NCBI RefSeq assembly: GCF_000003605.2
Contig: NW_003132373.1
Span: 15,755-36,767, forward strand
DNA: 21,013 nucleotides
Source of the DNA: Saccoglossus kowalevskii
Lineage: Eukaryota > Hemichordata > Enteropneusta > Harrimaniidae
Reading direction: 5' to 3'
Made by a program: the position numbers and the translations under genes. The notes below the pieces were generated by a model, which saw only the letters and a list, made by a program, of their open reading frames with translations, made no database searches and had not been told where the DNA came from. Positions 3,212 through 20,848 of this stretch are shown here, one piece after another; within the stretch, counting starts at the first letter, position 1; every line of letters starts with the position of its first letter.

Positions 3212-3293
3212 ATGAACAACGTAACCGAAGACACGATAAACAACTGTAATTCTGCCGCCACTCTGGGTAACAAGATACACTGGTTATCTGGAG
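3212..3293 (+). other. Candidate GPCR N-terminus in a shifted frame
   Basis: ATG at 3212 opens MNNVTEDTINNCNS and onward. This is short, polar and carries an N-V-T glycosylation sequon, as expected for the extracellular tail of a class A receptor. Its frame is +1 relative to the seven-helix frame, which itself is blocked by TAA at 3237-3239. One base lost between about 3240 and 3293 would join the two. The segment has no consensus internal intron: any GT to AG span here would be only about 27 bases. Either the receptor carries a frameshift (real or from assembly), or the true start is in an upstream exon and this ATG is coincidental. Confidence 0.45.
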
Positions 3294-4184
3294 GTGATCT
3301 TTACCATCATTGCACTTTTCGGAAACACTTTGTTCGTGTTTGCCGTGATCCTGAAACGCAAACTTCGTAATTGGTCCAACTGTTTTCTTGTGAATCTCGC
3401 ATTCACTGATCTCATCGCTGCGGTCCTTGTCACACCACTTTCCGGGGCGCTCCATCTTCAACGCGGCTGGCATTGGGGGAAACCCTATTGCGATTTTTAT
3501 CTAATGGCAACTATCCAACTTCTAGGCACCTCGCTCTGGCTGAGCGCGTGCACCGCTGTGAATCGGTACATATATATTGTATGTAACAAGATGTACACCA
3601 AAGTTACTAACAAGATAACAGTTTCGCTGGCTGTAGTATTTGTATGGAGCTTCCCAATAGCTATTACTGTTTATGAGTACTATAGATCACCTCCCGTGTA
3701 TTTGCCATCATCGTTTCGCTGTCGTACAGTAATAGCTCTAGGATCAAGCACTCTTCTTTATTATATCCCTTCTATCGTGGTAGGTGTATGTTACGCGTTG
3801 ATATTTGTATATGTCCGTCGCAGCCGAGCACGTGTTCAGTCGCATGCACAGCCACATCAACAACAGGGACAGAACGGGAAAATTGTCACCCATCAAGAGA
3901 TCCGTATGTTATTTGTTTTCTTCGGCGTGTACGGGCTGATTCTCATGGGTTATTTACCGTTCAGTGTGATATTAATGATCTATTCTGGTCTTGGACAAAT
4001 CCCACCGCCAACATTGCTGATATTTTGGTACTCTGGCATGCATATTGCCGGTGTATGTAACCCCATATTATATGGTCTGTGTAACGTGAATATCCGCGAA
4101 GCGTACAAAGAAATCTTAACCTGTAAAATAAAGATCCAGATACGACACGTTACTGCTACCGATATGACCGGCACTGATGTTTAA
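3240..4184 (+). CDS. Class A GPCR, melatonin-receptor-like (frame open from 3240; start unresolved)
   Basis: This is a seven-helix rhodopsin-class receptor of the plasma membrane. Numbering from the GTG at 3294 as residue 1: helix 1 holds the GN pair (GNTLFVFAV), helix 2 NLAFTDL with the conserved Asp at 39, and Cys66 can pair with Cys123 in the second extracellular loop. Helix 3 ends in NRY (90-92) instead of DRY, which is characteristic of melatonin receptors. Helix 7 holds NPILYG and leads into a short helix 8 (NVNIREAYKEIL), again close to melatonin receptors. Helix 6 lacks the usual CWxP tryptophan (GYLPF). The third intracellular loop is basic and Gln/His-rich. The ligand is unknown; related orphan receptors are an alternative. 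The open frame extends upstream to a TAA at 3237 and reads LPPLWVTRYTGYLEV into helix 1, but has no in-frame ATG there. The stop is TAA at 4182-4184. No introns interrupt the helices. Confidence 0.82.
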   Translation, partial: TTVILPPLWVTRYTGYLEVIFTIIALFGNTLFVFAVILKRKLRNWSNCFLVNLAFTDLIAAVLVTPLSGALHLQRGWHWGKPYCDFYLMATIQLLGTSLWLSACTAVNRYIYIVCNKMYTKVTNKITVSLAVVFVWSFPIAITVYEYYRSPPVYLPSSFRCRTVIALGSSTLLYYIPSIVVGVCYALIFVYVRRSRARVQSHAQPHQQQGQNGKIVTHQEIRMLFVFFGVYGLILMGYLPFSVILMIYSGLGQIPPPTLLIFWYSGMHIAGVCNPILYGLCNVNIREAYKEILTCKIKIQIRHVTATDMTGTDV

Positions 4185-9893: not shown

Positions 9894-10282
9894 TACTTTA
9901 GTTTAGTCAAAATAACTCGTATAGACTCGATTTCTTTAAATTGTTTTCAATATTTATTTTCTAATGAGGCAATTCCGGTTTCTGTCCCGCGTTTTATAAA
10001 CAATCGCAATTACTGGCAAATAATACAAGACATCCCAGCGTTGGTCCAAATGCCACGCCTGGAGAGGCATGCATATTAGTCATGTGTTTCAAACAAATAA
10101 GTGGTCAATACCACGAAATCGGGGCAATTTAGGAATGCTCAATAATGTGTCTATGTGCAGGTAAAACCACTACTCATTGGAGTCTTAATATATTACACAA
10201 GAATGTTAACTTTATGTGAACATTTCCAGACAATGAAAACTCTCGGCAATCAGCAGTACATTGATGACACATATTTGAGCCA

Positions 10283-10644
10283 GTGAATATTTAATGACAA
10301 TGACATGATAAATGTTTGTATCATTTGAGTCAGTGTTGGTGAATGTCAGTAAATGTTTGTGTCAGTGAATATTTAATGACAATGAGTTGATAAATGTTTA
10401 AGTCATTTAATTTGGTGTCAGTGAATGTCAGTAAATGTTTGTGTCAGTGAATATTTAAAGACAATGACTTGACAAATGTTTAACTTATATAAGTCAGTGT
10501 CAGTGAATGTCAGTAAATGTTTATATCAGTGAATATTTAATGACAATGAGTCGATAAATGTTTAAGTAATTTGAGTCGGTGCCGGTGAATGTCAGTAAAT
10601 GTTTGTGTCAGTGAATATTGAAGCCATTGTACAAGTGAATGTCA
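10283..10644 (+). repeat. 82-bp minisatellite, four copies
   Basis: Units start at 10283, 10365, 10447 and 10529, with a truncated fifth at 10611, giving an exact 82-bp period. Each unit runs GTGAATATTTAATGACAATG, a variable middle, then GTCAGTAAATGTTTGTGTCA. A shorter GTCAGTGAATGT sub-motif recurs inside and at the right edge (10641-10652), where it supplies the glycosyltransferase stop codon. On the minus strand three of the four units carry ATTAAA, a common variant polyadenylation hexamer, so the array may serve as the 3' UTR and poly(A) region. That role is inference. Confidence 0.9.
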
Positions 10645-11721
10645 GTGAATGTTAACTCTACAAGAATCTTGGAAGTCCTTGTGAGAATTGTAAATGGATT
10701 TCAAAGTCAGCAATCTATACTTCAGTTTACGTGCTCTATCAAACGCTACGTCATAGTTAATAAGTACATCTAATATATACTTTGTCCACGTGTCAACGTC
10801 ACGTTCAAGTGACACATTATTGAGTCCGACGTTAACAATTAATTGACTTGCTTCATCCGGGATATTCTCATTTAAGAACTGAGCCAGACCTGAATGTATC
10901 GTGACCAGTACAGGAATCCCAGCAGCCAATGCCTCTAAGCCTGCCATACCGAATGGTTCACTGCGAGACGCCACAATTACAAGGTGGCTCTGTCTCAAGT
11001 CAGTCCTTATTTGGTCATGTGATCCGTATGGGTAGAGGTTAACTTTCAAATACGCAGACATGACATGCTCAAAAATGTGTTCTTTGGTCTGTTGGTGTTC
11101 TCCAAATGGAATGCCCCGAATTGTCCACGTTGGCGGAATCTTGTTCATTTTGTGAAATACCTCCGCGACTTGACTGAGAGCCATGGCAATTACGTCATAA
11201 CCTTTGAGATGTTTGACTCCAATCACCCGTCCAATTGTTAAAATCCGACGGACGTGATTAGGTTCAGGTCTCATAGGATCAATGTCAAAAAAGTCTTTCG
11301 CGGGCACCGGAAGGAATAGCCTGTGGTCAATGTACGTCGACGCGAGGAATTTATTATCAAAATGATTGAAAACTCTTGGTCCAACAGAAAATACTATATC
11401 TGCTTGCTCAGCTTGGAGTCTGATTTCTGTTTCTTTGTCTTCTATGAGTGCCGGCGTCCAATTATCTTTGTAAATTTCAGTGTCTTCGGGAATCACGTGG
11501 TTGAAAAGTATAACTTGCGCATGCGGGAACACCTCGTCCCTGACAAAGATGGCAGATTCTGACGTCATAGGTACGTGACCAACAATGACGTCGGCACTGA
11601 TATCACGCAACAATGGAAAGTATGTCATGGGGTGTAGCATCGTCATATGAATGTCGTGCTGCAAACTCGTCCTTAACTTAGGAAGTAGCAAAGTTATGTT
11701 TCTCTTCTGTGCGTCCCTTTG
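10642..11721 (-). CDS. Glycosyltransferase exon 4 (catalytic domain, 3' end)
   Basis: The acceptor is TTATTATAG followed by CAA AGG GAC, in phase 0 with exon 3. The exon encodes residues 140-498, including both conserved glutamates and most of each Rossmann fold. The frame before the leucine codon TTG at 11691 is also coding, adding ten residues (QRDAQKRNIT). The final codons AAC ATT CAC TGA are copied from the minisatellite motif on the other strand. Confidence 0.88.
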   Translation of the reverse strand, partial: QRDAQKRNITLLLPKLRTSLQHDIHMTMLHPMTYFPLLRDISADVIVGHVPMTSESAIFVRDEVFPHAQVILFNHVIPEDTEIYKDNWTPALIEDKETEIRLQAEQADIVFSVGPRVFNHFDNKFLASTYIDHRLFLPVPAKDFFDIDPMRPEPNHVRRILTIGRVIGVKHLKGYDVIAMALSQVAEVFHKMNKIPPTWTIRGIPFGEHQQTKEHIFEHVMSAYLKVNLYPYGSHDQIRTDLRQSHLVIVASRSEPFGMAGLEALAAGIPVLVTIHSGLAQFLNENIPDEASQLIVNVGLNNVSLERDVDTWTKYILDVLINYDVAFDRARKLKYRLLTLKSIYNSHKDFQDSCRVNIH

Positions 11722-12110
11722 CTATAATAAATGATAAAATACTGTGAGTGTATCCTATAGTTTAATGCCCGCGTCCTGTTCCATATAGAGACGCACACAG
11801 CGCGCACGTGTAAAATACATTGTTTATTTACTTGAAATTCGATCATGCGCTGCGCATGCGCGACAACCACCGCGCTTTAAACACATCCACGGTCGTGGCT
11901 GTCACTGCTAATAGCCACACACGTACGCTTCGCACAATGCTATGAAATTTCATGAAATATAGAGTTACTATGGATACAACCCTGATTTTTTATAGTAATT
12001 AGTGGTGTGGAGGTAGGCAGTGATTGTGTATTATCAAATACTAGTACACTAAACAAGTCACAATTATAAAGTTGGATTTCTACTATCGAAGAATTCGAAT
12101 GTACTATGTA

Positions 12111-12152
<42 letters not shown>

Positions 12153-14164
12153 AGTTGTGGATATTGCAAAAATCGAAAAAGCGTTTGTTATTAAAAAGTG
12201 TAAAGCACTACTATTAGCCCAGATATTTCCAAGAGAACGATTTGAATTCACAGGTGTGTATCTGGGAGTTTTAGTGCCATGGTCGCTATTTCCATACACA
12301 CATGCTATCACCAAATGCTATCAGCTGGATTTGGGTTTCCCATTACTCAGTATTAATAATACAAAGTATTATAGTGTCTTTGTCGGTTGGATTGTTATTG
12401 GAATGTGTATGAATATGGTATCGGTATGATGTGATCTCTAATTAAAGGGCGGTGGTCGTCGCGCCGTGCACGAGTTCAAAAAAAGAACGTTATCAAGGTT
12501 TAAAGCGGGGAAGTCGTCACCTACGCATGTGTCAGATAGCCATAGCGTGTCATTGACTACAAACAAGCGCCTACCCATGAGCCTCTGCGTTCTTAGCGTG
12601 TAGTGTTGTCATCGCTTGGGACTCAATTCCCGCGCGTGCGCAGGTGACGACCCTCTCGCTTTAAATAGATTCATTTTAATTCATATCCATTTGGTTTGCA
12701 TCAATTGTAATGGCATATGTATGAAAAGTAGATATATGCGTCAGTGTTACTTACAATAATGTTCACATCTCACCTCTTTCTCAGATGCTTGTAAAACAAT
12801 TGATGTAACATTGTGACCAGCTTGTCTCGCGAGATTCGATATCAGGTAATGCACACTGGTAATTCCGCTGCCATGCGCATGCCCCATTCCCCAATAGTCT
12901 CCAATGATTAAAACATTACTACAGAATCAAGACACGGATAAGGTTATATCACCCTCTGGATATTATCATGAAGCAATGTGAAGTAATTTTATATTAAAGG
13001 CGCGATTGGAATTAGTAATGGTCGCCAGCGCATGCATGTGCTGGAAAAAAAAAAACAAGCACAAAAAATTAGACCTGCTTCTAAAAATGTGAAATTTTGC
13101 TAATCAGAGACATGTGATAAGTCTGGATTAGGTGTGATAAGCCGATTTGACCACCGCCATTATGAACATAATGTGTATTTGTTCGTACATTACTGGCTGC
13201 TTACCTATTGGTGTATGGTTTACTGCATCCAGAATCTAAAGGAGTTGATTGTGGCTTGCGGAAATCTGTAAAACAAAAAGTATAGTGTTTATGTTTGGAT
13301 TTATGAGTATATTTTAGATCAAGTTATTATCAAGTTCAATAAAGCTTTAAAGCAAATGGCTGCCGAGATTTCGTTGAGCGAATCACGTGACAAGTTCTTG
13401 CCCCGTGTCCAGCTTTCTTCATACTTCCGGTAATCGCATCCACTGTTCCCCTGATCTACGTAACCATGGTATTTGAAACAGTGGATTCTATGTCCGGGGA
13501 GAATGGGATTATTATTTGAGGGGCAAAGACTTTAAATCTGGTGGCACTCTCACTCTCAACGAGATATCGGCGGCCATTGAACATTACACAGTGTAATGAG
13601 ATTCAATTTTGAACACTGCAGTGGGAACTATATATTGTTACCAGATTAAATGTTTAACACGGTGCAATATTATTAGATTTAATTTTGAACTCCGCACAAA
13701 TTTATCAATATCAAATTTACGCTTCGTACTAAGTACGGAATATATATTATTCCTACTGGATATTTAAGTCTTGGGGCACCAATGCCAATTTTGGTAAAAT
13801 GATTTTGTATAGTCTGCATTTTAAAAATGGACAAATATTTTAATAAAAACTAAAAACAATATTTGAAACAGCCTGTATTGTCCAAAATGATGATGAAATT
13901 TAGGAAATTTTCTACAAAATGTGAAAATATTTGCACTAAATTTTGTTGTGAAAAAATCTGGCACATTAAAATGTTTTAATATTGTAGGTGCGTTCATAGG
14001 ATAATATGTGATAGTTTGGCGCTGATTCTGTATCTTATTCATAGAAATAACAGCTTGTTTTTCTAATCTAGTTTGAAAATCCGAAATAATTTATTCCTTG
14101 TTATACCTGGTGTGAGTTTATGGCTGTCAGGATACTTGTTCAACTCGTCTTGTAGCACTTGCTT

Positions 14165-14213
<49 letters not shown>

Positions 14214-14317
14214 GGCACCGGTGTTTGTTGTGATTGTTGGTACCCGGATCCAAAGATAATGTATATCAACACACACGTGACAAATGACGTCATTCCATAG
14301 AGAACAAACCAATGCAT
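10642..14317 (-). CDS. GT-B glycosyltransferase (GT4-type), type II membrane protein, four exons
   Basis: The spliced coding sequence joins 14107-14317, 13205-13265, 12774-12918 and 10642-11721. It totals 1497 bases, giving 498 residues plus stop, with every junction in phase and GT-AG. Residues about 6-23 form a hydrophobic anchor with little before it, typical of Golgi or ER type II enzymes. A Gln-rich stem with 16 consecutive Gln follows. Residues about 92-139 give the first Rossmann strand and helix (NVLIIGDYWGMGHAHG). Residues about 300-498 give the second Rossmann domain with GRVIGVKHLKG and the family motif SEPFGMAGLEALAAG, whose E394 and E402 form the E-x7-E that contacts the donor sugar nucleotide. 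Family knowledge supports a retaining transferase using an NDP-sugar; donor and acceptor cannot be read from sequence. I know no vertebrate orthologue, so no symbol is given. A 5' UTR intron acceptor (TTTTTCAG) lies 23 bases before the ATG. Confidence 0.85.
12112..12150 (+). repeat. (GTT)13 microsatellite
   Basis: Thirteen perfect GTT units are followed by GTAGTTG. On the gene's sense strand this is (AAC)n, the same trinucleotide class as the polyglutamine tract in exon 1. The long valine-rich or threonine-rich open frames across it are artefacts. Confidence 0.95.
12500..12664 (+). mobile_element. TTAA-flanked MITE, copy 2 (165 bp)
   Basis: This copy is complete, with TTAA at 12500-12503 and at 12661-12664. 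The ends read AGCGGGGAAGTCGTCACCT and, from the other strand, AGCGAGAGGGTCGTCACCT. The interior matches copy 1 in the same orientation. It lies in intron 3 of the glycosyltransferase. Confidence 0.88.
12774..12918 (-). CDS. Glycosyltransferase exon 3 (N-terminal Rossmann strand)
   Basis: This exon is 145 bases with acceptor TTCTGTAG and donor GAG|GTGAGA. Its first base, T, completes a serine codon begun in exon 2. The next 48 codons give residues 92-139: strand NVLIIG, a glycine/histidine-rich loop (GMGHAHGSG) suited to nucleotide-sugar contact, then helix SVHYLISNLARQAGH and strand VTSIVLQ. It is too interrupted to show as a long open frame, but splice sites and domain logic agree. Confidence 0.85.
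13205..13265 (-). CDS. Glycosyltransferase exon 2 (stem linker)
   Basis: This 61-base exon has a strong acceptor (TTTTTGTTTTACAG) and donor (ATAG|GTAAGC). It encodes a polar linker, FRKPQSTPLDSGCSKPYTN, flanked by split Asp and Ser codons. The one-base overhang of exon 1 and the two-base overhang needed by exon 3 both fit exactly. Such a junction match is unlikely by chance. Confidence 0.8.
13266..14106 (-). other. Glycosyltransferase intron 1
   Basis: The donor is CCAG|GTATAA and the acceptor TTTTACAG. Inside are a perfect 17-base palindrome at 13582-13598 (CATTACAC-A-GTGTAATG), a pair of 10-base inverted arms (ATCCACTGTT and AACAGTGGAT) near 13438-13487, and a short diverged direct repeat (TTCAATTTTGAAC and TTTAATTTTGAAC). 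No further exon is evident. Confidence 0.6.
14107..14317 (-). CDS. Glycosyltransferase exon 1 (membrane anchor and polyQ stem)
   Basis: ATG at 14315-14317 begins MHWFVLYGMTSFVTC, which leads into a hydrophobic segment of about 18 residues. A stem follows with Q-rich sequence and 16 consecutive glutamines, all encoded by CAA. The 211-base coding part ends in G|GTATAA, leaving one base for the next exon. An intron acceptor at about 14340 (TTTTTCAG|GG) leaves a 23-base 5' UTR in this exon. The open frame that continues past the donor to 14063 is read-through into the intron. Confidence 0.82.
14165..14212 (+). repeat. (TTG)16 = polyglutamine (CAA)16 in coding sequence
   Basis: Sixteen perfect TTG units occur, read as CAA glutamine codons on the minus strand with no CAG interruptions. 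Pure tracts of this length are usually length-polymorphic, which would vary the stem of the glycosyltransferase. Confidence 0.95.
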
Positions 14318-14453
14318 TATTACATTCTTCAGTGGAATCCCTGAAAAATCAACTCATTTCTTTCATGTCGTCTATTCTAGGCGTTTTTTTACCCATTAAC
14401 AACCATACCTTAATGATACTGATCCATGCCACCAAATGCTTCATCTCTGATAA

Positions 14454-15481
14454 TCGCCATACCCTAAGTAAGACCCGTTGAATACCATAGGATAAATAGG
14501 ACCTGTTGAACACCATACCCTAAATATAACACGTTGAACACCATACACTAAATAGAACACGTTGAACACCATACCCTAAATAGGACCTGTTGAACACCAT
14601 ACCCTAAATAGAACATGTTGAACACCATACCCTGAATAGGACATGTTGAACACCATACCCTAAATAAAACCCTTTGAACACCATACCCTAAATAGAACAC
14701 GTTGAACACCATACCCTAAATATGACCTGTTAAACACCACACCCTAAATAGAACACGTTGAACATCATACCCTAAATATGACCTGTTAAACACCGTACCA
14801 TAAATAAAACCCTTTGAACACCATACCCTGAATAAAACCCTTTTGAACACCATACCCTAAATATGACCTGTTAAACACCGTACCATAAATAAAACCCTTT
14901 GAACACCATACCCTGAATAAAACCCTTTTGAACACCATACCCTAAATATGACACGTTGAACACCATACCCTAAATAAAACCCTTTTGAACACCATACCCT
15001 AAATATGACACGTTGAACACCATATTCTAAATAAACCCTGTGCTCTCAATGGAACACCATACCCTAAATAAAGGTTCTCAATAGAACACCATACCCTAAA
15101 TAAGACCCATTGAACACCGTACCCCAAATAAGACCCGTTGAACACCGTACCCCAAATAAGGGCTCTCAATTGAACACCATACCCTAAAAGTGGCATTGCA
15201 ATTGAACACGGTTCCCTAAATGAAACATCTCAATGGAACACCATTCCCTAATTGAGACCTCTTAATTGAATACCATACCTCAAATGAAACCTCTCCATTA
15301 AAAAACATACCCCAAATGGAACCTCTCAATTGAACACTGTTTTCGAATGAAACCTCTCCATTTAACACCGTTCCCTGAATGAGATTTATACAGTGAATAT
15401 CGTTACCTAAGGAGACCTCTTAATTGAACCCTATGCAGTGTCATAAATGAGATTTCTGCATTGAGAACCGTGCCCTGGATG
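14454..15481 (+). repeat. 28-bp minisatellite with 85-bp higher-order repeat
   Basis: There are about 36 tandem units of roughly 28 bp around TTGAACACCATACCCTAAAT plus a variable GGACCTG, AACACG or AAACCCT tail. Units in the middle are very similar, while those after about 15180 decay gradually. Two successive 85-bp blocks (14771-14855 and 14856-14940) are identical and each comprises three unit variants, a sign of recent block duplication. Each unit contains CCCTAA, the telomere hexamer complement, but with 28-bp rather than 6-bp spacing. The array lies just 5' of glycosyltransferase exon 1, probably within its 5' UTR intron. Open frames inside are artefacts. Confidence 0.95.
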
Positions 15482-15800
15482 GTGTATACACTTTTATATT
15501 TGACCACCACTTGTGAAACAGAATTGGACAGATATGTTCATTAAAATCCAAACGAACCAGCACTAAAAAGAATTAAAAATATATTAAGGTCAATACACCT
15601 AATGAATATAACAATATTCGCCGCTTTTACAAAGGATAGTGGTATGACAAGTTCCCCCCCCCCGTGTATACACACACACACACTTTCAACCATTATATAT
15701 ATAAACCATATATATCTAAATTATAATATGTAAGCATTTAAAATTTATTTTGTGACATTTAACATTTTTAAACCTGCAAATAAACATGCAAAGAGATGAC
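15482..15800. other. AT-rich spacer with simple repeats
   Basis: The spacer holds a 10-C run (15654-15663), (CA)n near 15670 and an ATATATAT-rich tract near 15690-15720. No gene is seen. Confidence 0.5.
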
Positions 15801-15819
15801 ATCATCGTCTGCTTTGTTC

Positions 15820-16560
15820 GCTAAAGCGCAGTCGGTCGCAGCGTCCCATCTAGAAAGCGCGCGCTTCTAGTTTCCGCGACTGGTGGCACTGTCCTGTTCG
15901 TTGCCTCCCAACTGTGTTGCCCAATCGTGTCGATGAACTAAGGTAATTCGAGGGTGATTTATCCAAGCAAATGCGATAAACGAAGTGGGATTATGTCTAC
16001 AGAGCGCGAGTAGAGAGAGGTGAATTTGTTCTGTACTTTGTAGTGAGTAGTACTGTAACATTATTTGCGAAACGACATCGACGAAAGACCGACGTGATTT
16101 GTATTATCTTGGCGTCGACTTCACAGCCCGGGCACATTTTGCATAAACAAATGAAATTATCCCTGTTCTCAGGTGTGTTTTTCTTGTTTATACAGTCAGA
16201 TTAAATCAACAGTTGTTCCTCCTTCTATGATGGCTAACACCCACTAACTTTTCAATCATGTTCGTTCGCTGGATACCTTCTATTAAGTTTCGTTTGGCTT
16301 CGGCAAATCCCCGGCCTCTCGTAGAATTTGAAAATAACTGTTTACATAGACGGGACAGTTGCAAATAGCATGGTGTAACGATACGTCTACGTATATGTAC
16401 ACCGGATACGCACCCCTACGTATATATACGCACGCTGGCACAGACAGCCGATCCGCCGCGGCGATCTGGGGAATACTATGCGTACACACACTAGTGTAGC
16501 GTAGTGCAAGGCCGTAGCGGACACCGAGGCGGCGTACCAGTCAGTGACTGTCACGGTTTG
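15820..16560. promoter_or_regulatory. CpG-rich block, candidate promoter region
   Basis: CpG density rises sharply here, especially at 15830-15900 and 16430-16560 (GATCCGCCGCGGCGATC), against a CpG-poor surrounding. A near-perfect 21-base palindrome, CTAGAAAGCGCGCGCTTCTAG, lies at 15850-15870. A tract of alternating purine and pyrimidine, TACGTATATATACGCACGC, lies near 16418-16436. The position upstream of the minus-strand glycosyltransferase suggests its first (non-coding) exon and promoter. No exon can be placed with confidence. Confidence 0.35.
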
Positions 16561-16601
16561 CCTTTCGCTCGGGTGATCCCTACAATGCTACTCCACACCA
16601 C

Positions 16602-16935
16602 ACAACAGTCACTCGCCCACTTTGTCATATGCTGTTGTGAAGACAATTTCCAGAAAGACATTTTAAATTACTTATGCAGATTAAGCGGCCAGTGACTGTG
16701 AAACTGTTCCTGCGGATTTTTCAACAAGTTTTCCGCTTTTCAGTGGCAGCAAATCCACTAGTATTGACAACGCTACAAATAATAACAATAATGAACTCCC
16801 TGCCAACCCAAAATGGACTCAAGCACACTTTGATATGTCGCAGAGGGAGCTTTGGCCCATTACGGGTTGGCGGGTCGTTCATTATTGTTTAAATATTGAT
16901 TTGATATAGGCATATTTCAGAAAACGTAAAGGAAC
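16602..16935 (+). repeat. Duplicated segment, copy A
   Basis: This is highly similar to 18116-18432 over blocks AACAGTCACTCGCCC, TTTGTCATATGCTGTTGTG and most of the last 210 bases. Copy A holds a roughly 70-bp stretch after GAAGACAA that copy B lacks, and copy B has its own insertion after ACTCGCCCGC. It includes the foldback at 16784-16889. The few mismatches in the shared blocks suggest a fairly recent event. Confidence 0.88.
16784..16889. mobile_element. Foldback element within copy A (106 bp)
   Basis: Left arm AACAATAATGAAC-TCCCT-GCCAA pairs with the right arm ending GTTCATTATTGTT. The 32-base arms continue through ATAATGG and further imperfect pairing (ACTCAAGC with GAGCTTTGG). It has the shape of a short MITE or a long hairpin transcript. 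No target duplication is clear. Confidence 0.6.
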
Positions 16936-17000
16936 TTATCTGCCGCAAAAAAATCACCTCTCCCCCATTTATTGATTCTACAGGGAATGGTATGACGCAC

Positions 17001-17144
17001 CTTGGCTGCGCTTTATTGTAATATGGCCTCTTTCTCGGTTGTATGTTTTGGTTTTCACGCTTGGTTTCCGATGATTCAGACAATTGCTGTTGATATCGTC
17101 GTCCCTTATATCTCGGAAAAGTAGTCCTGGAACGAGGCGGTCTT
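17001..17144 (-). CDS. Candidate exon, possibly the 3' continuation of the LRR gene
   Basis: This is a 144-base segment with a strong acceptor (TTAATTCATTTTCAG) and a good donor (CCAAG|GTGCGT). Two of its three frames are open. In the phase dictated by the LRR donor at 18510 it reads EDRLVPGLLFRDIRDDD and onward, 48 codons that are hydrophilic and without a known domain. In the other open frame it reads an Arg/Gln-rich sequence (RPPRSRTTFPRYKGRRYQQQ), which would require a different upstream exon. Either way a further exon must lie to the left, and I could not identify it. Membership in the LRR gene is inference. Confidence 0.35.
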
Positions 17145-17509
17145 CTGAAAATGAATTAACATAAATACATTACAGCTGTATGCTACTGAAGCTCAAATAT
17201 TGCATTGTTCTCGTTTTTTCCGTTCACTGCGGATTACAATATCAACATGAGCCGAGAAAATTGTTTTTAAATAACAGATCGGACTCATATGACTCCTGCT
17301 TTCGAGTGTAATGAGAGTATGACGTGCGTACGTCGTTGGCCTGGCTGCTGTGCATCAACTACAACACAATACACTGTACGTAATTTGATTCCATGGTGTA
17401 ATTCCGTATAAGTGGGTCCCATGTTACCCCACATTTTAATTGTTGTCACCTTTCATATAATAAACCTACATAATACCCTGATAATACCAGTAATAGTACA
17501 TTATTCCTA
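17145..17509. other. No feature seen
   Basis: This is unassigned sequence between the candidate exon and the TA element. If the exon belongs to the LRR gene, this is intron. Confidence 0.4.
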
Positions 17510-17761
17510 TAAATTACGCCCTCTAGTGACGGAAAGCAACTGTGGCCTGAAAATTGCGTATGACGAGGGCGCTGCCGTTTAAAAAGACCTCTGTGTGTGA
17601 CTGTAAAGTCGTTTGTCATCTGGAATATAGTAAAATCTCTTAAAACAGAGTTTTCATTGATTAACGACTAATATAGATCAAATAGATATCGACGACTTGA
17701 CCGGTATTCGTATCACTCATTTACGTCATAGATGTGCTTCGACACTGGAGGGCGTGATTTA
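17510..17761. mobile_element. TA-flanked MITE with AATYACGCCCTC ends (252 bp)
   Basis: The terminal inverted repeats are AATTACGCCCTCTAGTG on the left and, from the other strand, AATCACGCCCTCCAGTG on the right. That is 15 of 17 matches, with TA at both outer edges. The interior has AGGGCGC motifs and no coding frame. A TA duplication fits mobilisation by a Tc1/mariner-type transposase (inference). A further AGAGGGCGCGATTT just outside the right end (17773-17786) looks like part of a neighbouring or nested copy. Confidence 0.7.
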
Positions 17762-18115
17762 CAACGATGATAGAGGGCGCGATTTCACACAGGCGAAGCA
17801 CTGGTGTTGTCTGTGGCAGCACAGAGGTTGCGTAAACTAGTTTAATTTCCTCGAAAACTGCTCGCACGAAAACAATGTTTTTGGTTGAATCAATGCTTAA
17901 TCAGTTGAATTATTTTTCTGGGAAATTTTTCTGGGAAAATTAACGTGTGTTTTTAATATTCCTAGAGTGACACGTTTGTAAATCACTAAGTGACACATAA
18001 CTTGTTTTATTTGACATTTTTCTTGGCATTTCTCTTATTCTAAATTGATAGGAAGTGGAACAAATATTCTATGGTTATAATTATGTGTTTGCCCACAGAA
18101 ATGTAATAGCAAATT
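17762..18115. other. No gene seen
   Basis: AT-rich sequence with a short ATTTTTCTGGGAAA tandem repetition near 17920-17940. It lies within the putative LRR-gene intron. Confidence 0.4.
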
Positions 18116-18432
18116 CAACAGTCACTCGCCCGCTTGCAATGTAAATGATTCAAAATAATATTTGATGGATAAAAAACAGTTTCGTTCTTAGTTTGTCATA
18201 TGCTGTTGTGAAGACAAGTTTCACCAAGTTTTCCGCTTTTCAGTGGCAGCAAATCCACTAGTATTAACAACGCTACAAAATAATAACAATAATGAACTCC
18301 CTGCCAACCCATAATGGACTCAAGCACACTTTGATATGTGGCAGAGCGAGCTTTGGCCCATTATTGATTGGCGGGTCGTTCATTATTGTTTAAATATTGA
18401 TTTAATGTAGGCAAATTTCAGAGAACGTAAAA
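18116..18432 (+). repeat. Duplicated segment, copy B
   Basis: Direct-orientation partner of 16602-16935, about 1.5 kb away. Blocks shared at high identity include CAACAGTCACTCGCCC, GTTTGTCATATGCTGTTG and the 210 bases from AAGTTTTCCGC to GAGAACGTAAA. The foldback lies at 18285-18390. The copy ends only about 64 bases from the LRR stop codon. Confidence 0.88.
18285..18390. mobile_element. Foldback element within copy B (106 bp)
   Basis: It has the same inverted arms as 16784-16889: ACAATAATGAACTCCCTGCC on the left and, from the other strand, ACAATAATGAACGACCCGCC on the right. The loops differ by a few substitutions between copies, so both were duplicated with the larger segment. Confidence 0.6.
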
Positions 18433-18495
18433 AATGTAAACTTAGTTAGTTCTTTGGTGTTCGGTTTAGATATGTTGTATTGTTAAACCATACTG

Positions 18496-19194
18496 TTAAG
18501 AACGCTCACCAGTGTCGTTCATCGTTAACTTAATATTATTGTAGTCATGGCAACCGTCGAGTACTTTTCCTAGGCCTGTCTCGGCGTTCTCTTTATTCCT
18601 GAGTGGTGTATTCTTGTATTCAACTTTGATGGATTGTCTAAGATTAGGCAGGCGTTGTAAACTCGTGTATGACATGCCGACTTCCTTGAGATTAACATTG
18701 TTGTTCAAACTGTCTGGCAGAGTGTCAATTTTCTTGTTTTGGTCAAGAAAGAGTTCTCTCAGTTCCTGCATATCTTCAACGTCTCTTGGAAGTATGTCTA
18801 TGTTATTATCTCTCATATCAAGATGGCGTAGTCCTGTCATCTTGCAGACGACAGTTGGAAACTTGACGAACCTGTTGCTATGAATGTCCAATTCGTCCAA
18901 TTTTTCTAATTGTCTTATTTCATCTGGCAATTTGGATAGGCGATTTTTACCAAAACACAAAATTGTCAGTGACCTTAACTCGCAAAGTATTTTTGGAAAT
19001 CGAGAAAACTGGTTATTTTGGAGGTTTAACTCGAAAATGCTCTCCAGCCTCACCATTTCGGGCGGAAGTGACGACAGATAATTTCCTCTCAGCCACGCCA
19101 CTTTCACGTGATAGTTGTGTTGCCATAGCTCATCGGGTACGTCTGTCAAACTGAGAGCATCTTTGCAATACAATTCTTCCTTCAAGTTCATCAT
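18496..19194 (-). CDS. Leucine-rich repeat protein (LRRC/SHOC2-like), 232 residues or longer
   Basis: About eight LRRs of 23 residues span residues 15-200, with the pattern LxxLxLxxNxLxxLPxxLxxL (for example ELNLQNNQFSRFP, ELDIHSNRFVKFP, HLDMRDNNIDILP, ELFLDQNKKIDTLP). This is the short intracellular type seen in SHOC2, LRRC2 and LRRC39 relatives. No signal peptide or membrane segment is seen, so a cytosolic or nuclear scaffold is likely; partners are unknown. The start is ATG at 19192-19194, followed by a second ATG. An in-frame TGA lies only 21 bases upstream, and a 3' splice site (TTGGTTTTAG) at 19219 shows that the 5' UTR is spliced. The tail after residue 205 is polar. The stop is TAA at 18496, but ACTG|GTGAGC at 18510 is a good donor just before it, so the real protein may continue elsewhere. 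Confidence 0.8.
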   Translation of the reverse strand: MMNLKEELYCKDALSLTDVPDELWQHNYHVKVAWLRGNYLSSLPPEMVRLESIFELNLQNNQFSRFPKILCELRSLTILCFGKNRLSKLPDEIRQLEKLDELDIHSNRFVKFPTVVCKMTGLRHLDMRDNNIDILPRDVEDMQELRELFLDQNKKIDTLPDSLNNNVNLKEVGMSYTSLQRLPNLRQSIKVEYKNTPLRNKENAETGLGKVLDGCHDYNNIKLTMNDTGERS

Positions 19195-20683: not shown

Positions 20684-20848
20684 TTAAAGCGGGAGGGTCG
20701 TCGCCTGCGCACGCGCGAGAACAGAGTCCCAAGCGATGATGACAACGCCAGCTTAAAACGCAAAGGCTCATGGGTAGACGCTTGTTTGTAAACAATGACA
20801 CGCTATGGCCATCTGACGCATGCGCAGGTGATGACTCCCCCGCTTTAA
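20684..20848 (-). mobile_element. TTAA-flanked MITE, copy 3 (165 bp, inverted)
   Basis: This copy is complete and lies in the opposite orientation to copies 1 and 2, with TTAA at 20684-20687 and 20845-20848. Its length is the same as copy 2. Inside, ACGCTTGTTTGTAAACAATG and GACACGCTATGGCC are the reverse complement of the other copies' core. The terminal CGCATGCGCAGGTGATGAC includes an NRF-1-like GCATGCGC. The 119-codon open frame across it is incidental. Confidence 0.88.

Follow-up and report, generated by a model that had tools for sequence, protein, structure and literature searches.

What kind of protein is encoded on the minus strand of a 21,013-nt stretch of the Saccoglossus kowalevskii genome (contig NW_003132373.1, positions 15,755 to 36,767; this whole stretch is hereafter called the window)? 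An original prediction, made from the sequence alone, placed at 10642..14317 a four-exon type II membrane glycosyltransferase, a GT4-type enzyme with a Golgi-like anchor and a polyglutamine (polyQ) stem. We propose that the locus is probably an animal gene of five coding exons belonging to the GT4-conflict family, in which a leucine-rich repeat (LRR) exon comes first, then one membrane helix and a stem of polyQ and linker, with the GT4 domain at the C terminus (Table 1). The exon chain is open and phase-consistent, and counterparts of its domain-exon boundary and of its linker, helix and LRR exons are found in different paralogs.

Exon structure and identity of the enzyme

The four-exon reconstruction was reproduced in every respect: the segment 14317-14107 (211 nt) joins minus-strand segments of 61, 145 and 1080 nt (the last with the stop) to 1497 nt, or 499 codons including the stop (498 residues), with GT-AG borders at all three introns and phases 1, 2 and 0. 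Splice sites were scored with a generic frequency matrix, and all GT and AG sites within 14400-10600 were ranked. The donors of exons 3 and 2 were the top two among 190 GT sites, and the acceptors of exons 2, 4 and 3 ranked 2nd, 5th and 17th (score 4.9) among 184 AG sites; the exon-1 donor was comparatively weak (score 5.2). When 14106-12918 was shuffled with dinucleotides preserved, an open internal exon with a summed splice score at least that of exon 2 arose in 1 of 400 shuffles, and in 0 of 400 with phases 1 to 2. Of 100 shuffles of a 4.1-kb sequence, 5 produced a first exon that encodes a membrane helix and ends in phase 1, and exon 1 by itself only modestly beats chance. By these ranks and controls, support is good for exons 2-4 but not for exon 1 alone.

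A profile search with the joined protein, a check named in the original prediction, identified it as a member of the GT4-conflict family (PF20706, 222 bits against a cut-off of 26, profile positions 3-372 of 385). The next Pfam family was PF00534 (46 bits), and Glycogen_syn reached 21.5 bits, below its cut-off. With exons 1-3 added to the catalytic exon, PF20706 scores 222 bits in place of 198, and the match starts at profile position 3, no longer at 45; exon 3 carries the first Rossmann strand that the catalytic exon had been said to lack. The GH, R, K and EX7E residues have catalytic meaning in GT4 enzymes, and the window copy retains the G loop, both histidines, R, K and both EX7E glutamates.

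The sequence ahead of the helix exon was surveyed for open frames of at least 75 residues, and of these the LRR frame was scanned against Pfam. It spans 19212-18496 on the same strand as the GT4 exons, matches LRR_8 with 57.8 bits and has a phase-1 donor (score 8.6) after 18510. The helix exon has a phase-1 acceptor, GATTTTTCAG, before 14340 (score 4.5), upstream of the ATG at which the original prediction began. Joined in phase, the five exons make 2205 nt and encode 734 residues plus the stop. The exon formerly taken as the first is probably not the first, and the coding part probably starts upstream at the LRR exon. Of the predicted type II anchor, the helix is present (Kyte-Doolittle hydropathy 2.17 over 19 residues), but the exon that carries it is probably internal (phase 1 to 1), with the LRR exon ahead, and the protein is therefore probably no simple N-anchored Golgi enzyme. 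As for the polyQ stem, its codons form a pure (CAA)16 microsatellite, and intron 3 contains a similar repeat; the polyQ is therefore no evidence for a conserved stem.

A comparable neighborhood of LRR frame and GT4 exon occurs elsewhere in the genome. When the genome was searched with the window LRR, 150 of 168 candidates were scored and 95 matches obtained; the top match besides the window itself was the LRR frame of locus L092 (C4179:318370-318957, 83.3 bits), which precedes the GT4 exon of that locus (C4179:315582-316721) by 1.6 kb on the same strand. L092 is the paralog most like the window, and the two LRR frames share 30% identity over 195 residues. Among 229,927 bases in 36 pieces of the same genome, the LRR frame matched only in the window and at L092; the chance for a random place to fall on the same strand and within 3 kb upstream of any of the 36 GT4 matches is about 1e-4.

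Table 1. Features of the window that make up or accompany the proposed gene (positions of the window)
Feature	Position	Strand	Details
LRR exon, probable first coding exon	18510..19194	-	685 nt; ATG at 19194; phase-1 end at donor ACACTG/GTGAGC
Proposed intron 1 of the five-exon model	14341..18509	-	4169 nt; phase-1 donor 18510/18509, phase-1 acceptor; holds a 28-bp minisatellite and a duplicated 213-bp element
Membrane-helix and polyQ exon	14107..14340	-	234 nt; phase 1 to 1; exon 1 of the original prediction is its 14107-14317 part, from ATG 14317
Pure (CAA)16 microsatellite encoding polyQ	14165..14213	.	16.3 copies, 100% matches
Linker exon	13205..13265	-	61 nt; phase 1 to 2; 0/400 shuffles; counterparts readable 1 to 2 in 6/12 close paralogs
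Exon encoding the first Rossmann strand and the GT4 glycine loop	12774..12918	-	145 nt; phase 2 to 0; adds 24 bits to the profile match
Second (CAA)16 microsatellite, intron 3	12111..12158	.	16.0 copies, 95% matches
Catalytic exon	10642..11721	-	1080 nt with stop; GT4 residues H, R, K, EX7E present; PF20706 198 bits alone
EX7E motif	10933..10959	-	Glu codons 10959-10957 and 10935-10933; alignment columns E255, E263

The GT4-conflict family and its possibly exchangeable front ends

A search of the genome (572,110,611 bases in 4830 contigs) revealed 36 PF20706 matches including the window's own, the other 35 being covered by 34 sequence pieces. As 23 of these 35 run full length in one stop-free frame (profile 1-2 to at least 364), the GT4 domain is intronless in most paralogs. 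The window domain is interrupted by an intron at about profile position 45 that most paralogs do not have, in agreement with the introns originally claimed for the enzyme. The three best relatives of the window protein are 44% identical to it.

It has been previously reported that GT4-conflict domains occur in bacterial conflict systems and in marine invertebrates, with lateral transfer proposed (Kaur et al. 2021, PMC8195603), and the class is thus not unfamiliar in animals, contrary to the original prediction. The suggestion of a lineage-specific family fits the expansion in this genome (36 matches), and the nearest relatives among those found are bacterial proteins; a possible acquisition from microbes had already been put forward in the same paper. 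Plasmid records gave nine weak matches (25-27% identity), three of which were used as seeds, and a scan of genome contigs gave at least 74 loci. No match was found in PADLOC and phage records, or in viral contigs in one scan with a single protein, which detects close relatives only. Among the matches listed, the best two blastp partners of the window protein were L005, an Amycolatopsis protein of the arrangement HTH-NB-ARC-TPR-GT4 (418 bits), and L006 (434 bits).

We built a tree of 41 rows, comprising 28 from the S. kowalevskii genome (the window included) and 13 from bacteria, with no other animals; eight of the 36 own-genome matches were kept out as partial, broken or duplicate. All animal rows fall on one side of a branch with support 100/100, and with these 13 bacterial rows and no other animals they adjoin L005 and L006 (85/75, unstarred). 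The window groups with L098 and L099, both in the 41-row tree (93/90) and in a 17-row tree (92/93), unstarred. The full residue set (R, K, E, E) is kept in 10 of the 13 rows of the window's clade, in none of the 15 other own-genome rows and in 11 of the 13 bacterial rows, counts that rest on one alignment of divergent rows. The 15 of the 28 own-genome rows with an incomplete set (L100-L103, L105-L112 and L116-L118) form a block of probable pseudo-glycosyltransferases. Because the set is kept in some rows and lost in others, the family includes probable enzymes as well as probable pseudo-enzymes.

The exon anatomy was examined in the other 12 rows of the window's clade. A phase-2 AG acceptor lies 4-10 nt ahead of the domain start in all 12, as it does at window exon 3. 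A short exon readable in phases 1 to 2 was found within about 0.6 kb upstream in six (L092, L093, L094, L097, L098 and L099); the remaining six had no such exon over threshold within that distance. L088 and L091 have, in place of the linker, a phase 0 to 2 exon with an ATG, which may start a soluble form. The membrane helix exon of the original prediction has strong phase 1 to 1 counterparts in the two related paralogs L098 (splice score 22.9) and L099 (17.4), both found before the tree was built. Ahead of the GT4 exon, L099 and L093 encode a death-effector domain (DED; 37.8 and 44.1 bits, cut-off 35.9). In L098, a cysteine-rich frame with a coiled-coil-like stretch lies between the helix exon and the linker, 799 to 421 bases before the domain, with a phase-1 donor, and is a possible extracellular stem.

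Phase-1 donors were found near the ends of the front-end frames not only in the window but also in L092 (12.5), L099 (4.8) and L093 (4.4-4.7). Because these four N-terminal exons, two LRR and two DED, can each end in phase 1, front ends could be swapped on one GT4 chassis with the frame preserved, whether or not the symmetric helix exon came along. The LRR seems to be one of several front ends in the S. kowalevskii family. A tree with L093 and L099 as sisters was rejected (approximately unbiased (AU) test, p 0.0002; the pair was chosen after the first tree had been inspected), which fits either front-end exchange or repeated loss.

Two candidate parts were discarded. An in-frame hydrophobic stretch ahead of the L087 domain, considered as an anchor, is probably a translated polypyrimidine tract, with an AG acceptor (7.9) lying downstream of it; a match of window exon 2 to the upstream region of L094/L095 (DFRKP..., E 29) has misfitting phases. 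At the other end of the protein, the GT4 frames of L106, L111, L112 and L116 carry C-terminal tails of 165 to 228 residues that are TRADD-N-like by eye; no TRADD-N profile matched them at E 0.01. Also by eye, a frame about 2.4 to 3.0 kb upstream of the L089 GT4 exon resembles a piece of a retroelement polymerase. Over the 3 kb preceding the GT4 exon, the L094 and L095 contigs show 99.5% identity; they are probably haplotypes kept separate in the assembly.

Several repeats accompany the window gene. A dispersed repeat of about 165 bp occurs at 1660-1817, at 12500-12665 (in the intron interrupting the GT4 domain) and at 20684-20848, and also in L088, L092, L096 and L097. An 82-bp tandem array (10274-10680) directly follows the gene; one degenerate copy at 10517-10680 (61%) runs into the final codons, with the stop codon falling, as judged by eye, within a motif of the repeat unit. 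The 28-bp minisatellite has about 25 copies (14457-15384) just upstream of the helix exon, with longer-period copies beyond. A 213-bp element with an internal inverted repeat, resembling a miniature inverted-repeat transposable element, occurs twice within the proposed intron 1 (16719-16930 and 18219-18431, 94% identical). Elsewhere in the window, the plus strand at 3240-4184 holds a single-exon frame for a rhodopsin-type G-protein-coupled receptor (7tm_1, 99 bits).

Membrane topology and competing readings

If the five-exon model is correct, the LRR exon would be spliced to the helix exon, the LRR would face the cytosol, and the enzyme would face the lumen or the cell exterior. This orientation is weakly suggested by three features. 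A lysine stands ahead of the window helix and none directly behind it. N-glycosylation sequons in the GT4 region exceed expectation in the window (4 vs 1.8), L099 (6 vs 2.2) and, slightly, L098 (3 vs 2.7), giving 13 vs 6.7 for the three helix-bearing rows and 60 vs 54.4 for the other 26 rows (duplicate L095 excluded). The third feature is the cysteine-rich and coiled-coil frame of L098. In such a protein, the LRR (or the DED of a paralog) would sense or recruit and the GT4 domain would be the effector, as in an immune-type sensor-effector; binding by the LRR would control or position a retaining GT-B enzyme, which would transfer sugar from a nucleotide sugar to a target. As a tentative model, in which we place less than even confidence, the gene may thus encode a transmembrane sensor-effector with a cytosolic LRR (in a paralog, a DED), one helix and a conflict-type GT4 on the far side of the membrane, in the lumen of the secretory pathway or on the surface of the cell, its family having diversified by phase-1 exon shuffling; the pseudo-enzymes (15 of 28 rows) may be decoys or sensors of sugar nucleotides.

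A number of observations weigh against this architecture. The LRR match at L092 is only 8 bits ahead of the runner-up in the genome (83.3 vs 75.4, with 150 of 168 candidates scored), and the AU test leaves a sisterhood of the window and L092 undecided (p 0.30). The window LRR frame hits a stop 14 nt past its donor, and a separate gene is possible. The summed splice score of the window helix exon (9.6) is within the background of the scan, its acceptor being weak; in the same scan weak helix exons appeared at L094 (12.6), L097 (10.9), L101 (9.8) and L090 (9.1), and in the upstream stretches of L088, L100 and L111 too. The linker exon of L093, L098 and L099 is open in more than one phase, and the shuffle controls covered the exons of the window, not the acceptors and linkers counted in the paralogs. 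At L092 the 3 kb examined showed no helix exon, and at L098 neither the LRR nor the DED queries matched significantly in 7 kb of upstream sequence. The two helix-bearing relatives have lost catalytic residues, L098 lacking K and L099 both R and K. Finally, PF20706 is a lax profile; since each of the 14 control genomes contains matches that exceed its cut-off, a score above this threshold is not enough to identify a conflict protein.

Some of these points favor the simpler structure of the original prediction, in which a 498-residue type II membrane glycosyltransferase starts at ATG 14317 and the LRR frame is an independent neighboring gene. The four-exon chain is open as it stands, the LRR frame has its own nearby stop, the acceptor ahead of the helix exon is weak, and the LRR and helix exons are 4.2 kb apart with repeats between them. 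However, the closest own-genome relative of the window LRR also directly precedes a GT4 exon of the same orientation, and in L099 a DED frame is followed by a 1 to 1 helix exon with good splice sites, so that the helix exon looks internal there. We regard two independent genes as quite unlikely. Far less probable still, to the point of being nearly negligible, is a housekeeping ER/Golgi enzyme of the ALG2, ALG11, PIGA or glycogen-synthase kind, or a decayed copy. Generic GT4 profiles do match the protein (PF00534, and Glycogen_syn below its cut-off), but PF20706 scores about 176 bits above every other Pfam profile, in a comparison made with profiles rather than with ALG or PIGA sequences themselves. 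The 36 genome matches, the LRR and DED frames upstream of paralogs, the open frame and the intact R, K, E and E argue in the same direction; on the strength of the profile scores and the intact residues, we rejected the housekeeping reading as well as that of a pseudogene. The original prediction had held that housekeeping relatives look different, and indeed the best profile match of the enzyme is none of the housekeeping profiles.

The helix exon might instead be a cassette. Because it is symmetric (1 to 1), a soluble form is possible by skipping it; the product would be an LRR-linker-GT4 protein of the L092 kind, made besides or instead of the membrane form, and the working enzyme would be cytosolic, as assumed for the bacterial relatives. 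The LRR donor and the linker acceptor are both phase 1, and in L092, which has both an LRR and a linker, the 3 kb examined showed no helix exon. The L092 LRR frame also starts with MGQEHS, which we take to be a possible myristoylation motif. Against this, the window helix exon is open in frame, its segment is strongly hydrophobic, and the carriers of helix exons form one group in the tree, unstarred. We consider this reading unlikely, and its "besides the membrane form" part overlaps with the five-exon membrane protein that we favor.

Comparison with known systems and implications

Golgi type II glycosyltransferases have a single helix and a stem followed by a C-terminal catalytic domain, and the four-exon model shares this helix-stem-catalytic order. 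The window gene differs from them in its conflict-type GT4 domain, in the folded LRR proposed on the N side of the helix in place of a short tail, and in a polyQ tract that is a microsatellite.

The bacterial STAND-GT4 proteins, of which L005 shows the arrangement described by Kaur et al. 2021 (PMC8195603), resemble the window protein in their C-terminal GT4 domain, G loop, GH, GR...KG and EX7E motifs; in them the domain is joined to sensor or adaptor domains, as we propose for the window. Identity to them is 26-28%; the window exons described here encode a membrane helix and no NB-ARC, and they are separated by introns. The same paper, as far as consulted, reports metazoan GT4 expansions with more than 500 paralogs in Acropora digitifera and fusions to TRADD-N and LRR, and it treats the animal GT4-conflict domains as predicted effectors with no known substrate. 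These animal proteins share with the window the GT4 family, a lineage-specific expansion and, in our model, variable fused domains. In the proposed window protein, however, the LRR precedes the GT4 domain and a membrane helix lies between them, and a membrane-anchored GT4 is not mentioned in the consulted parts of that paper (PMC8195603). A Crassostrea virginica family with a cysteine-rich ectodomain, transmembrane helix, DED and TRADD-N is like the proposed L099 protein in spanning the membrane with the DED on one side, but as described there it has no GT4 (PMC8195603). In corals, group-1 glycosyltransferase genes are joined to LRR/NACHT, TPR or ankyrin (PMC12314368). Like the proposed window gene, these Acropora glycos_transf_1 genes combine a GT4-type domain and LRR in an expanded family; their LRR forms often carry NACHT, according to the portion consulted, and the words "transmembrane" and "membrane" are absent from the main text of PMC12314368. 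No membrane-anchored animal GT4-conflict protein is named in the parts of the literature searched, which is not proof of absence.

Taken together, the GT4-conflict family, its marine-invertebrate expansions and its LRR fusions are known already, and our analysis suggests a membrane helix between LRR and GT4 as a variant. If this is true, a membrane-anchored GT4 with an intact catalytic set and a sensor across the membrane would place glycosyltransferase activity where nucleotide sugars meet surface glycoproteins, and an effector of bacterial conflict proteins would act on the cell surface or inside the secretory lumen. The exon-phase pattern suggests a simple route by which the architectures of this family may diversify, and the locus offers a concrete gene for testing predicted immune glycosylation.

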